This document shows positions 4,302 through 37,535 of a stretch of DNA of 45,055 bases, piece after piece. Made by a program: the position numbers and the translations under genes. The DNA is from Actinomycetota bacterium (GTDB lineage: Bacteria > Actinomycetota > Thermoleophilia > Gaiellales > Gaiellaceae), in contig JAIBJO010000006.1 in NCBI GenBank assembly GCA_020029615.1, forward strand, positions 1-45,055. Direction: 5' to 3'. Numbering within the stretch: position 1 is the first letter of the stretch; every line of letters begins with the position of its first letter. Below the pieces are notes generated by a model. It made no database searches and was not told the origin of the DNA. It was given only the letters and a program-made list of their open reading frames with translations.

Positions 4302-5165
4302 ATGAGAGGACTCGTTCTACTGGTGGCCGGAGCGCTCACGCTGGCCCTGGCGACGACGGTGGGGCCGGTGGCACTCGCAGGCGACAAGCCGAAGAGCGGA
4401 GACGAGCGCCCCGATATCAGAGTCAGGGACCTTCGCGGCGTGAACTTCGTCGAGAACTGCGGCTTCTCGCACCAGGCGCCCGACGACCCGATCGTCTTCC
4501 CAGGAAGGCCGGGAGCCTCACATCAGCACACCTTCGTCGGCAACGGTACGACGAACGCGTTCTCGAGTTTCGGATCGCTTCGCTCGGGCTCGACCACGTG
4601 CATGCGCCGCGACGATACGGCCGCCTACTGGGTACCGGCGCTGTACCAGGGAACGTCACAGGTGCTGCCGCTCGCAGCGACGATCTACTACCGGCGCGGC
4701 ACGTTCGCCGAGGTGAGCCCGTTCCCGAACAACCTGCGTGTGATCGCAGGTGACGCGGCGGCGACGGCGCCGCAGGGCATGCGGGTGACATTCTGGAGTT
4801 GCGGTCTCGTGAGCGGCATCGGCCCGTCGGAGTCGGTGCCGACGTGCCCCGCCACGCGTGGCTCGTTCCTCCGCCTGCACATCCGCTTCCCCGAGTGCTG
4901 GGACGGAAGGAGGCTCGACAGCGCCGACCACAAGAGCCACATGGCATATGCGACGCGAGCCGGCTGCCCGTCGACCCACCCGGTCGAGGTTCCGCAGATC
5001 ACGCAGATCTACCGCTACCCGACGCGTGGGGGCGAAGGCTTCTCGCTCGCCTCGGGCGGCGTCTACTCAGCGCACGCGGACTTCATGAACGCCTGGAAGC
5101 CGGAAGCGCTGCGCAAGCTCGTGGACGACTGCCTGAACGCGCTCGTCCACTGCGGGCGCGGGTAA
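4302..5165 (+). CDS. Secreted DUF1996-family protein
   Basis: A 287-residue exported protein. The N-terminus (MRGLVLLVAGALTLALATT) is a signal peptide, with likely cleavage after an Ala-rich stretch near residue 30. The mature part has DUF1996 features: NFVENCGFSHQAPDDPIVFPG, SHQHTFVGN, conserved Cys residues, FRLHIRFPECWDG-like text and HMAYA. DUF1996 is found in bacteria and fungi, with secreted, possibly carbohydrate-associated roles; no reaction is established. The ATG at 4302 is preceded by a G-rich SD (ggggggag). It converges with a secreted GH26-like gene, with a hairpin between the two. Confidence 0.85.
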   Translation: MRGLVLLVAGALTLALATTVGPVALAGDKPKSGDERPDIRVRDLRGVNFVENCGFSHQAPDDPIVFPGRPGASHQHTFVGNGTTNAFSSFGSLRSGSTTCMRRDDTAAYWVPALYQGTSQVLPLAATIYYRRGTFAEVSPFPNNLRVIAGDAAATAPQGMRVTFWSCGLVSGIGPSESVPTCPATRGSFLRLHIRFPECWDGRRLDSADHKSHMAYATRAGCPSTHPVEVPQITQIYRYPTRGGEGFSLASGGVYSAHADFMNAWKPEALRKLVDDCLNALVHCGRG

Positions 5166-32197: not shown

Positions 32198-32203
32198 TAG
32201 AGT
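32198..32203 (+). promoter_or_regulatory. -10 box TAGAGT, probable leaderless promoter
   Basis: TAGAGT ends 6 nt before GTG 32210 of the MBL-like gene; no SD is present. Confidence 0.5.
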
Positions 32204-32209
32204 CGAGGC

Positions 32210-32839
32210 GTGGAGGTCGTCAAGATCACCCCTCGGCTCTGGCGCTGGACGGGCTACCACGAGGAGTGGAAGCAGGACGTCGGGTGCGTGTACTTCGAGA
32301 CGGAAGACGACGGTATCGTCCTCGTCGACCCGCTCGTCCCACCCGAGGAGCCCGAACGCTTCCTGGGCACTCTCGACAGCGAGGTCGCCGCCAGCCCCGT
32401 CCACGTGCTGGTGACGATCTTCTGGCACACGCGGAGCGCCGCTGCGCTCGTCGAGCGCTACGGCGCTCACGTCTGGGCCCCGACCACGGCGCGGGCGGCC
32501 GTAGCGCGCAGAGCGAGGGTCGTCACGGATGTGTTCCGGCCTGGAGACGAGCTTCCAGGTGGGGTCCAGGCGTTTCCAACGGCGCGGCGCACGGAAGTCG
32601 TGTACTGGATCCCCTCGCAAGCCAGCCTCGTCCCGGGCGACGTGCTGCTCGGAGACGAGCACGGCGGCGTTCGACTGTGCCCGGAGTCCTGGCTTCCGGA
32701 CGGGACGAAGCGCAGCCACCTCGCCTCCTCGCTCACGCCGCTCCTCGACCTCCCGATCGAGCGCATCCTCGTGTCGCACGGCGAGCCCGTTCTCCAAGAC
32801 GGCCACGCCGTGCTCGCGACCGCCCTGGACGCCGCATAG
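32210..32839 (+). CDS. MBL-fold-like protein with degenerate metal site
   Basis: A 209-residue protein whose strand order resembles metallo-beta-lactamase-fold hydrolases: CVYFETEDDGIVLVDPLVPP, VLVTIFWHTRSAAALVERYG at the usual HxHxDH position, YWIPSQASLVPGDVLLGD and ILVSHGEPVL. Only one His remains in the HxHxDH segment, so canonical two-zinc binding is unlikely. It may be a non-catalytic or single-metal member. The GTG start follows a -10 box by 6 nt. LemA begins 12 bp downstream but has its own box. Confidence 0.68.
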   Translation: MEVVKITPRLWRWTGYHEEWKQDVGCVYFETEDDGIVLVDPLVPPEEPERFLGTLDSEVAASPVHVLVTIFWHTRSAAALVERYGAHVWAPTTARAAVARRARVVTDVFRPGDELPGGVQAFPTARRTEVVYWIPSQASLVPGDVLLGDEHGGVRLCPESWLPDGTKRSHLASSLTPLLDLPIERILVSHGEPVLQDGHAVLATALDAA

Positions 32840-34365: not shown

Positions 34366-34443
34366 GGGGTCGGCCGAGCGAGCTGAGAGGGGAAGGATTT
34401 CGGATTCAGCTAAACCGGCATTCGGGTCGATAAAGGACGTGCC

Positions 34444-37254
34444 GTGAAAGGACTCCGCATCGGCCGACGCCGTGCGCGCGCGAACGGGCTTCCCAGCTCG
34501 CCACTCGAGCTTGCCCTGATCCCCGCGCTCTCCGAGGAGCGCTGGCACCTTCCGGATCGCTTCAACTTCACGCGCGACGTGGTGGAGGCGCTCGCGAGCG
34601 ACCACAAGCGCCGGGCCTTGACGTTCCTGGGCAAGGACGGCGTCATCGAGCCGCGAACGTTCATGCAGATCTCCGAGGGCGCTTCTCGCTGGGCGGCGAC
34701 TCTCCGTGAGCACGGTATCCAGCCCGAGGACCGTGTCGTCGTCCTTGCAGGGAGCGGTCTCGAGTGGCTCGAGGTGATGCTCGGCGTCATCAAGGTGGGC
34801 GCAGTCGCGGTCCCGTGCTCACCCGGGCTGTCGGCTCAGGCGCTCGAGGTTCGCGTCTCCTCGACCGAGGCGGCGCTCATCGTCGCCGAGCACTCGTGCC
34901 AGGCCGCGATCACGCAGATGTCCTACGAGCCCGACGTCCACTATCTCGATGAGGGCCGCCACCGCCGCTCGTCGGACGTCCCCGACGACTCGCCCACCCA
35001 CGACACGTCGTCACGGGACCTCGCATTCATCCTCTCGACCCCGGGCACGGGCGGCGCGCCGAAGCAGGTCGCCCATACGCATGGATCGGTGTTTGCAACG
35101 CGGGTCGCCGCCGAGCACTGGCTCGACGCCGGCCGCGGCGACGCCGTCTGGTGCACGGCACCACCTGACTCTCCACACGCCGTGTGGAGCGCGCTCGTCG
35201 GACCCTGGTCTCGCGGTGCCGAGGTCGTGCTCCACCAGGGCGAGTTCGATCCACTCGAGCGACTCGACCTGCTGTACCGCCTAGGCCCGACGATCCTGTG
35301 CCAGTCTCCCGCCGAGTACCGCGCGCTCGCCGAGCTCCGCGAGCTCGAGCGGTTCCGGTCACCGCGCCTCCGCCGGCTCGTGTCGACCGGCGACCATCTG
35401 GAGCCGGACCTCATCGCGACGTTCGAGGAGCGGTGGGGGATGACGATCCACGACGGGTACGGCCAGGCCGAGACCAACGTGGTCGTCGCCAACGGCGCCG
35501 AAGCCGGGTTCAAGCCTGGATCCCTGGGACGCGCACTCCCGGGCCATCACGTCGCGATCATCGACGGCGAGGGCGACGAACTACCCGTCGGCATCGAGGG
35601 AGACCTCGCGGTGCGCGGACGCCCACCGACGCTGTTCGCCGGCTACTGGGAGTCCACGGACGAGACGAAGAGCGCGTTTCGTGGGGACTGGTACTTGACC
35701 GGCGACGTCGCCGTCGAAGACGAGGACGGCTTCTTCTGGTTCGTCGGTCGTGCGGAGGACGTCATCACGAGCCGAGGCCGTACGTTCGGTCCGTTCGAGG
35801 TCGAGCGCGTCCTGCGCGGCCACGAAGCGACCGTGGCGAGCGCGGTCATCGGGCTTCGCGACCTCCAACGGGGAGGTCAGTTCGTCCGAGCGTACGTCGT
35901 TCCACGGCCCGGAGACGAGGGCTCGGAGCAGCTCGAGGCCGAACTGCGCCAGTTCGTGGGGCAGGCACTCCCCGAGCAGCTCGTCCCGCGAGAGATCGTC
36001 TTTGTCGAGGAGATCCCCACTCTCGGGGGCAAGGTCAGCCGCCACCTCCTTCGCGAGCGGCCTGTCGGCGGACGCCCGTTGTGGGAGCTTCCCCCGACAT
36101 CCGAGCCGGAAGCGGAGGCTCCGCCGCTCACGCCCACGCCTCCGCCCGCCGCTGCGCCGCCTACTCCTCTCCCCGCGCCGCCCGTCGTCGCCGAGGCGGC
36201 GCCGGTCGTTGCGCCCGAACCGCTCGAGCCCACTCTCGTGCCCCCTCCGGCGCCCGCGCTCGCCGAGGCTGCCCCGATCCCGGAGCGAGAGCCCGATTCC
36301 GAGCCGGAGCCGGAGCCGGTCAAGGCGGCCGAGCCAGATCCCGTCGTCGTACCAGCGCCGGAGCCGACCGCCGTCACACAGCCGGGCCCGGAGCCCGTCG
36401 TCGTCCGCGAGCCGGAGCCGGTCGTCGAAGCCATGCCTGTGGCAGAGCCCGATCCCGAGCCTGCGGTCGCAGCAGAGGCGGTCGACGAGCCCGAGCCGGT
36501 CGCTGCAGCGGAGCCGGAAGCGGGGCTGGAGCCCGAGCCGGAGCCGGAGCCGATCTCGGCACCGGCGACCACTTCCGGGGCCGCGCCGGCGCCGGAGCCG
36601 ACGCACCGGCCCGAGTTCACCGTCATCTCGACGCCCGAGCCCGAGACGTTGCCCGACTACGTCGTCGAGTCATCGTCCGAGGCCCCGCCCGTCGCTCCGC
36701 CGGCGCCCGAGCCCGTGACGTCAGCTCCGGAGCCTCTTCCCGACTTCGTCATCCAGCCCGAGGCAGGGTCAGCCCGGTCAGCGCCACCGCCTCTCCCCGA
36801 GCCGGAGCCCGAGCCGGAGCTCGGCCCGCTCCCGGACTACGTCGTCGACCCCACTCGACCTCCGGAGTCGAGACCCAGCCACGACCACCTGCGCCCGGCC
36901 GCAGAAGCGCCGAGGACCTTCCTCGAAGTCGCCCCGGACACGGGGTCAGGCGACCCTCCGAGCGGCCTCTACTTCCCACCCGTCACGAGCTTTCCCACTC
37001 CTCGCGAGGATGCCGACGAGGGAGACCACGGGCGCGAGCCGCCGAGGCCGTCGCGGCGACGACCCGCGCCCGAGACCGGCAAGACGAAGCGCGGCAAGTC
37101 CGGCGCGGCAGAGCCGGGCGACGAGGCGGAGGAGGTCAGCTGGATGGCAGGCCTGTCGAACCGGCTCAGCGCGTACAGCCTCGCCGAGGAGGAGGCGTCC
37201 TCGGCCGGCGAGCCGGACGAGGAAAAGCCGAAGGACGCCGAGACCGGCAGCTGA
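34444..37254 (+). CDS. Acyl-CoA-synthetase-like enzyme fused to a ~390-residue Pro/Glu-rich tail
   Basis: A 936-residue protein, far longer than the usual ~500-550. Residues about 20-540 are an ANL-superfamily adenylating enzyme related to benzoate/medium-chain acyl-CoA ligases. FILSTPGTGGAPKQVAHTHG is the phosphate loop (K207), YGQAET is motif A5, GDWYLTGDVA is A7, FVGRAEDVITSRGRTFGPFEVE is A8 and IPTLGGKVSRHLL carries the catalytic Lys530. Residues about 547-936 are low-complexity, rich in Pro, Glu and Ala, with EPEPEP runs and three LPDYVV/LPDFVI segments at 736, 765 and 796. The C-terminus turns charged (SWMAGLSNRLSAYSLAEEEA). AAAGGA precedes the GTG. Confidence 0.85.
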   Translation: MKGLRIGRRRARANGLPSSPLELALIPALSEERWHLPDRFNFTRDVVEALASDHKRRALTFLGKDGVIEPRTFMQISEGASRWAATLREHGIQPEDRVVVLAGSGLEWLEVMLGVIKVGAVAVPCSPGLSAQALEVRVSSTEAALIVAEHSCQAAITQMSYEPDVHYLDEGRHRRSSDVPDDSPTHDTSSRDLAFILSTPGTGGAPKQVAHTHGSVFATRVAAEHWLDAGRGDAVWCTAPPDSPHAVWSALVGPWSRGAEVVLHQGEFDPLERLDLLYRLGPTILCQSPAEYRALAELRELERFRSPRLRRLVSTGDHLEPDLIATFEERWGMTIHDGYGQAETNVVVANGAEAGFKPGSLGRALPGHHVAIIDGEGDELPVGIEGDLAVRGRPPTLFAGYWESTDETKSAFRGDWYLTGDVAVEDEDGFFWFVGRAEDVITSRGRTFGPFEVERVLRGHEATVASAVIGLRDLQRGGQFVRAYVVPRPGDEGSEQLEAELRQFVGQALPEQLVPREIVFVEEIPTLGGKVSRHLLRERPVGGRPLWELPPTSEPEAEAPPLTPTPPPAAAPPTPLPAPPVVAEAAPVVAPEPLEPTLVPPPAPALAEAAPIPEREPDSEPEPEPVKAAEPDPVVVPAPEPTAVTQPGPEPVVVREPEPVVEAMPVAEPDPEPAVAAEAVDEPEPVAAAEPEAGLEPEPEPEPISAPATTSGAAPAPEPTHRPEFTVISTPEPETLPDYVVESSSEAPPVAPPAPEPVTSAPEPLPDFVIQPEAGSARSAPPPLPEPEPEPELGPLPDYVVDPTRPPESRPSHDHLRPAAEAPRTFLEVAPDTGSGDPPSGLYFPPVTSFPTPREDADEGDHGREPPRPSRRRPAPETGKTKRGKSGAAEPGDEAEEVSWMAGLSNRLSAYSLAEEEASSAGEPDEEKPKDAETGS

Positions 37255-37310: not shown

Positions 37311-37316
37311 TAGCCT
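37311..37316 (+). promoter_or_regulatory. -10-like box TAGCCT, possible leaderless promoter
   Basis: TAGCCT ends 6 nt before GTG 37323 of a small gene; no SD is visible. Confidence 0.35.
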
Positions 37317-37322
37317 GCACGC

Positions 37323-37535
37323 GTGACCGACCAGGCGGCGGTGAGTCTGCTGCGCTGGCTGCGCCGGCAACTCCGCCAGCCGACGCCTCAACGCGAGCAT
37401 CTCGAGGCGGCCGTCGCCAACGACGACCCCGTCGAGGCACGCCGGCTCGTCGCGCTCATCCCGTTCACCGCCGCACAACGGCGCCACGTCGAGAGCCTGA
37501 TCTCGCGCTGGGAGGAGGGGCGTGCCGGGACCTGA
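37323..37535 (+). CDS. Small hypothetical protein (70 aa)
   Basis: A basic, helical 70-residue protein with no recognised domain: LLRWLRRQLRQP, then HLEAAVANDDPVEARRLVALIP and RRHVESLISRWEEGRAG. There is no signal or membrane segment. It overlaps the NTF2-like gene by 14 bp in another frame, consistent with an operon of the two. Codon use matches its neighbours, supporting a real gene. Confidence 0.55.
   Translation: MTDQAAVSLLRWLRRQLRQPTPQREHLEAAVANDDPVEARRLVALIPFTAAQRRHVESLISRWEEGRAGT

Follow-up and report, generated by a model that had tools for sequence, protein, structure and literature searches.

Acyl-CoA synthetases of the MACS/MbcS type, represented by human ACSM2A and the family NF047394, are the closest described counterparts of a gene that we analyzed in a bacterium of the Gaiellaceae (Actinomycetota; Thermoleophilia; Gaiellales). 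The gene lies on contig JAIBJO010000006.1 (GenBank assembly GCA_020029615.1), of which positions 1 to 45,055 were analyzed and are referred to here as the window. It encodes a protein in which an ANL-type adenylation enzyme is followed, in the same frame, by a Pro/Glu-rich tail of ~390 residues. This fusion, proposed in a first-pass annotation of the window, was confirmed as a single open frame that starts with GTG and encodes 936 residues (Table 1).

The window protein has the fold and domain order of the MACS/MbcS-type synthetases and shares with them G201, E343, D421, R436, and K530 (residue numbers are those of the window protein). In contrast to them, it carries about 390 extra residues, and the proteins of its genus have eroded A3, A5, and A8 motifs, lack the pocket Trp, and in some cases have lost the A10 Lys. 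A nearer comparison is offered by tailed orthologues of the sister genus (genomes G087, G089, and G090, together with G088), which belong to the same ANL clade and combine a long low-complexity linker with the same [LIMV]xxRLx[AF]Y core; their catalytic motifs, however, are mostly canonical, their linkers differ in composition, and they lack the WM..LS module found in the window's genus. The tail itself, which is acidic (about -0.14) and 25% Pro, can be likened to PopZ-type acidic Pro-rich scaffold linkers. There is no sequence relation to PopZ, and the head here is an ANL fold. PopZ-type scaffolds have a helical oligomerization domain adjoining the disordered linker; for the window protein, a model based on an alignment of 12 sequences predicts no helix at the C terminus.

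Our preferred reading, to which we give a probability of roughly 55%, is that the gene encodes a tethered, probably nucleotide-binding pseudoenzyme, derived from a MACS/MbcS-like ancestor that gained its tail first and lost catalysis afterwards.

Active-site erosion in a conserved ANL head

In the window protein, the Pfam domains AMP-binding (PF00501; residues 55 to 402, E 5.9e-59) and AMP-binding_C (PF13193; residues 452 to 525, E 1.6e-12) occur in the expected order. The top NCBIfam match is MbcS (NF047394), whose score of 365 bits does not reach the curated equivalog cutoff of 850 bits; the intact relatives in G030 and G089, at 570 and 518 bits, also fall below it. The AlphaFold model of the head has the ANL fold, with a predicted local distance difference test (pLDDT) score mostly between 70 and 90, and its top Foldseek matches are human ACSM2A structures (E 2e-44). 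The ratio of nonsynonymous to synonymous substitution rates (dN/dS) of the head was 0.099 and 0.089 in two pairs; this strong purifying selection indicates that the fold is under selection.

We compared the heads of the window's genus (g1; 11 genomes, ten with the gene) with 20 other ANL homologues, including six close relatives, tailed and tail-less. K207, K530, and the unusual phosphate loop STPGTGGAPKQV are present in the window protein, as the first-pass annotation had noted. Erosion is directly visible in the alignment. In all ten proteins of the genus, the pocket Trp243 is replaced by Ser or Thr and the A8 Asp438 is lost. The A5 Thr at position 342 has become Ala or Val in nine of the ten (it is Thr in all six close relatives), and six carry Pro, Cys, or Ala instead of Ser200 in the phosphate loop, which varies among close orthologues. 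The A10 Lys has been lost in three proteins, K530 being Arg in G007 (76% identical), Ala in G006, and Thr in G001. All five of these residues are retained by the six close relatives. At the nucleotide site, G201, E343, D421, and R436 are invariant in the ten proteins of the genus, and position 199 is Thr or Ser. Elsewhere in the ANL family, substituting Ala for the equivalent A5 Thr lowers the kcat/Km of 4-chlorobenzoate:CoA ligase 100-fold (PMC6122825), and FadD13 without its A10 Lys loses about 95% of its activity (PMC2793005). A PROSITE-style A3 pattern was dropped as a test of catalysis, since the canonical relatives in G030 and G014 fail it too. Judged from its sequence, the window protein is likely inactive; its earlier description as a complete adenylation enzyme holds for the fold and probably fails for catalysis.

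A conserved peptide at the end of a variable linker

AlphaFold predicts no secondary structure beyond residue 548, and pLDDT is mostly below 50 over the whole tail (shallow alignment, 12 sequences); a Pfam search of the tail matched no family. Mean pairwise identity over the whole tail is 33%. The three LPDYV-like motifs lie at residues 736, 765, and 796, as first reported. Every one of the nine intact tails of the genus contains LP[DE][YF][VI], in one to four copies whose positions shift. The 23 copies in total compare with a mean of 0.023 and a maximum of 1 in 1,000 composition-preserving shuffles, a significance that is overstated because orthologues share ancestry. The filler around the motifs evolves faster (dN/dS, 0.22 to 0.33). 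The window's own genome has four occurrences of the degenerate pattern LP-D/E-[YF]-V, three of them in this gene.

These motifs had been taken for the only ordered-looking elements of the tail, a view that does not stand: AlphaFold leaves them at low pLDDT, and a C-terminal module at residues 891 to 916 (PGDEAEEVSWMAGLSNRLSAYSLAEE) is more conserved. With the consensus PGDExEExxWMxGLSxRLSAYSL, this tail end is the most conserved stretch of the tail in the genus. Residues 901 to 910 show 79% mean pairwise identity versus the tail-wide value given above; L, S, R, L, A, and Y are invariant over ten aligned rows, and dN/dS is 0.035 and 0.097 in two pairs. A profile of the module found one match in each of ten genomes of the genus, each in this gene, and at E 0.001 it found nothing outside this gene across 399 genomes of the class and none among 103 genomes of the family. 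We took two other matches as chance: one in G011, within a glutamate-dehydrogenase-like C terminus, and a weak lectin match, the only one returned by a PDB sequence search with the module.

The core of the module, [LIMV]xxRLx[AF]Y, reaches beyond the genus. It occurs in all 13 intact tailed proteins of the two genera, at a distance of 11 to 34 residues from the C terminus; in shuffles, an average of 0.002 proteins contained it. In the sister genus it terminates linkers that are E/A/R-rich in G088, G089, and G090 and Pro/Glu-rich in G087. The linker is therefore free to change while the end stays fixed, which would be the behavior of a docking peptide on a spacer. In the window's own genome the short pattern is no commoner than its control (six matches versus 13); only that of the window gene lies near the end of a long open reading frame (ORF). 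On these sequence grounds, the C-terminal core is the strongest docking candidate. The original docking-motif proposal is thus upheld in part, in that the genus has kept, alongside the head, a long disordered tail bearing recurrent short motifs; what it overlooked was the stronger candidate in the end peptide.

Distribution and order of events

The gene is present in 10 of the 11 genomes of the genus, the window's own included; the eleventh, G008, is only 63% complete. No untailed orthologue was found in the genus: every orthologue found there carries the tail, that of G001 with a frameshift within it, and the intact proteins range from 902 to 1,095 residues. When 129 genomes of the order were searched at E < 1e-100, further relatives appeared only in five genomes of the sister genus (g37) and in G094 and G030; the proteins of the latter two have no tail. 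Within the sister genus, tails are present in G087, G089, G090, and G088, and the protein of G086 runs off its contig. One scan of genome contigs yielded matches to distant ANL enzymes only. The two genera grouped together in the tree with support of 94/98, the window's genus being monophyletic (100/100), with the caveat that the G088 branch is long and its placement unsure. Amidase, XdhC-like, and CoxE-like genes lie near the locus in both G089 and G030, which supports a common locus.

The G088 protein (L110) lacks the ANL C-lobe and retains the E/A/R-rich tail and end peptide. This could be a real deletion or an assembly error, and the missing lobe may be an artifact.

The data show the fusion itself, conservation at both of its ends, eroded motifs, and purifying selection; from them we infer nucleotide binding, a docking role, a partner, and a lack of catalysis. 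A MACS/MbcS-like acyl-CoA synthetase would have acquired a C-terminal extension, long and flexible, with [LIMV]xxRLx[AF]Y at its end, and its catalytic motifs would have decayed in the window's genus after that gain. The head, whose fold persists along with the residues that surround Mg and ribose, would still bind ATP/AMP or an acyl-adenylate, and the acidic Pro-rich linker of ~350 residues would allow the LPDYV repeats and the end peptide to hold one or more partner proteins. The C-lobe of ANL enzymes rotates in catalysis (PMC6122825). Since the tail exits right after this lobe, it might in principle be displaced when a ligand binds, although ligand-driven movement is speculation on our part. 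More tentatively, the protein may be a pseudo-acyl-CoA synthetase whose role is to sense an adenylate ligand, or to hold it, and to organize partners through a new type of short linear docking peptide, [LIMV]xxRLx[AF]Y with the LPDYV repeats, its tail gained before catalysis was lost.

Alternative readings

Several observations weigh against a pseudoenzyme. Among positions that do not vary in more distant ANL homologues, the window's genus shows changes in 73 of 210 cells within motifs (35%) and in 102 of 420 cells elsewhere (24%), an excess that fails to reach significance when counted by site (Fisher p 0.13); the erosion claim therefore rests on the contrast with the six close relatives, where 3 of 126 motif cells (2%) and 17 of 252 other cells (7%) are changed, in rows whose shared ancestry limits that contrast. 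Five ANL residues, the equivalents of T199, E343, D421, R436, and K530, are invariant in 374 sequences (PMC6122825). The window protein has all five in addition to K207 and could therefore possess residual or altered activity. As to the tail, AlphaFold predicts no helix at the end peptide, and no partner protein was found.

The same residues favor a reading close to that of the first-pass annotation, in which the protein still works as an acyl-CoA ligase, or another adenylate-forming one, whose motifs have relaxed and whose substrate has changed, its tail tethering it to a complex. The strong purifying selection on the head and the intact motifs of the tailed versions in the sister genus point the same way. 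We nevertheless regard this as rather unlikely, given that three orthologues, one of them as close as G007, have R, A, or T in place of the A10 Lys, that nine of the ten proteins have lost the A5 Thr and all ten the pocket Trp, and that the phosphate loop differs between close orthologues.

In encapsulation peptides, a Pro-rich linker leads into a short conserved segment. The end peptide resembles this arrangement and might accordingly direct the protein as cargo to a bacterial microcompartment or an encapsulin, or else serve as an amphipathic membrane anchor. Microcompartment shell genes do occur in G004 (L074, G004:C4) and G007 (L075, G007:C48). However, PF00936 was matched in only two of seven genomes searched, six of which have the tailed gene, with no match in the single-contig G006 (97% complete) or in the window's own genome (89.6% complete), and the encapsulin family PF04454 had no match in the 11 genomes searched, nine of which carry the tailed gene; the shell-gene and encapsulin searches thus support neither cargo role. 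The helical hydrophobic moment of the end peptide is low in most orthologues (0.04 to 0.30 in the window's genus), and inspection by eye, with no transmembrane predictor run, revealed no signal or membrane segment, leaving the membrane or envelope tether suggested at first unsupported. We consider this group of roles improbable.

A neutral, functionless low-complexity expansion by repeat slippage would account for the variable filler and length of the intact members and for the higher dN/dS of the linker. It appears very improbable, however, in that all orthologues found keep the tail, LPDYV is enriched, and the end peptide is conserved despite differing linkers, with dN/dS down to 0.035.

That the tail is a separate gene joined by a frame error, as the frameshift in the tail of the G001 assembly (L048, around 4600-5160) might suggest, can be dismissed unless all genomes share one error: head and tail occupy one open frame in nine of the ten genomes of the genus that carry the gene (the window's included) and in four of the sister genus, and GC at third codon positions amounts to 0.85 for the head and 0.84 for the tail, so that the tail reads as coding. 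The break in G001 may itself be an assembly error, the C-terminal module being intact there in another frame.

Features and surroundings of the locus

Table 1. Positions of the gene and its elements in the window
Feature	Residues	Coordinates	Strand	Evidence or remark
Coding sequence, ANL head plus long low-complexity tail, 936 aa	1-936	34444..37254	+	GTG start; start position conserved among orthologues
ANL head (acyl-CoA synthetase, MACS/MbcS-like)	34-540	34543..36063	+	PF00501, PF13193; Foldseek ACSM2A; dN/dS 0.09-0.10
A3 phosphate loop TPGTGGAPK	199-207	35038..35064	+	Eroded versus TSGTTxxPK of close relatives
A5 motif YGQAE	339-343	35458..35472	+	Ala342 in place of canonical Thr
A10 motif PTLGGKVSR	525-533	36016..36042	+	K530 kept here; R/A/T in three orthologues
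Acidic Pro/Glu/Ala-rich disordered tail	545-936	36076..37251	+	AlphaFold pLDDT mostly <50; no Pfam family
LPDYVV	736-741	36649..36666	+	Motif search, alignment of tails
LPDFVI	765-770	36736..36753	+	Motif search, alignment of tails
LPDYVV(DP), best conserved copy	796-801	36829..36846	+	Motif search, alignment of tails
C-terminal module	891-916	37114..37191	+	Once per genome in ten genomes of the genus; dN/dS 0.035-0.097
Module core LSNRLSAY ([LIMV]xxRLx[AF]Y)	904-911	37153..37176	+	13/13 intact tailed orthologues, two genera

Wherever the contig extends far enough, the gene order in the genus is an ORF at 32201-32836, LemA, HtpX, and the window gene; direct matches were obtained for the first ORF and for HtpX, and the position of LemA was inferred. 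The ORF at 32201-32836 (+ strand), upstream of LemA, is 58 to 77% identical within the genus and has no Pfam or NCBIfam match. Approximately 9 nt upstream of the GTG start, at 34425-34434, lies GGTCGATAAA (GGTCGATAAT in most orthologues), which is conserved in the genus and may be the -10 element of a leaderless promoter.

Downstream, a 73-residue ORF (37314-37532, + strand) with no Pfam or NCBIfam match is found in 10 of the 11 genomes and usually adjoins a SnoaL gene. The pair follows the tailed gene in seven of ten genomes, the window counted. In G001, G003, and G010 the 73-residue ORF is on a separate contig; given this separation, we do not favor the 73-residue protein as the partner of the tail.

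Implications

Pseudoenzymes are best known from eukaryotic signaling, and the literature titles and abstracts that we searched described no inactive or disordered-tailed acyl-CoA synthetase. Two conserved short peptides, the end peptide WMAGLSNRLSAYSL and LPDYVVDP, can be offered as bait for partners. The family apparently preserves the order of events, from intact and tail-less proteins (G030 and G094) through intact tailed ones (the sister genus) to tailed proteins with a decayed site (the window's genus). If this order is true, the transition from enzyme to scaffold becomes testable.
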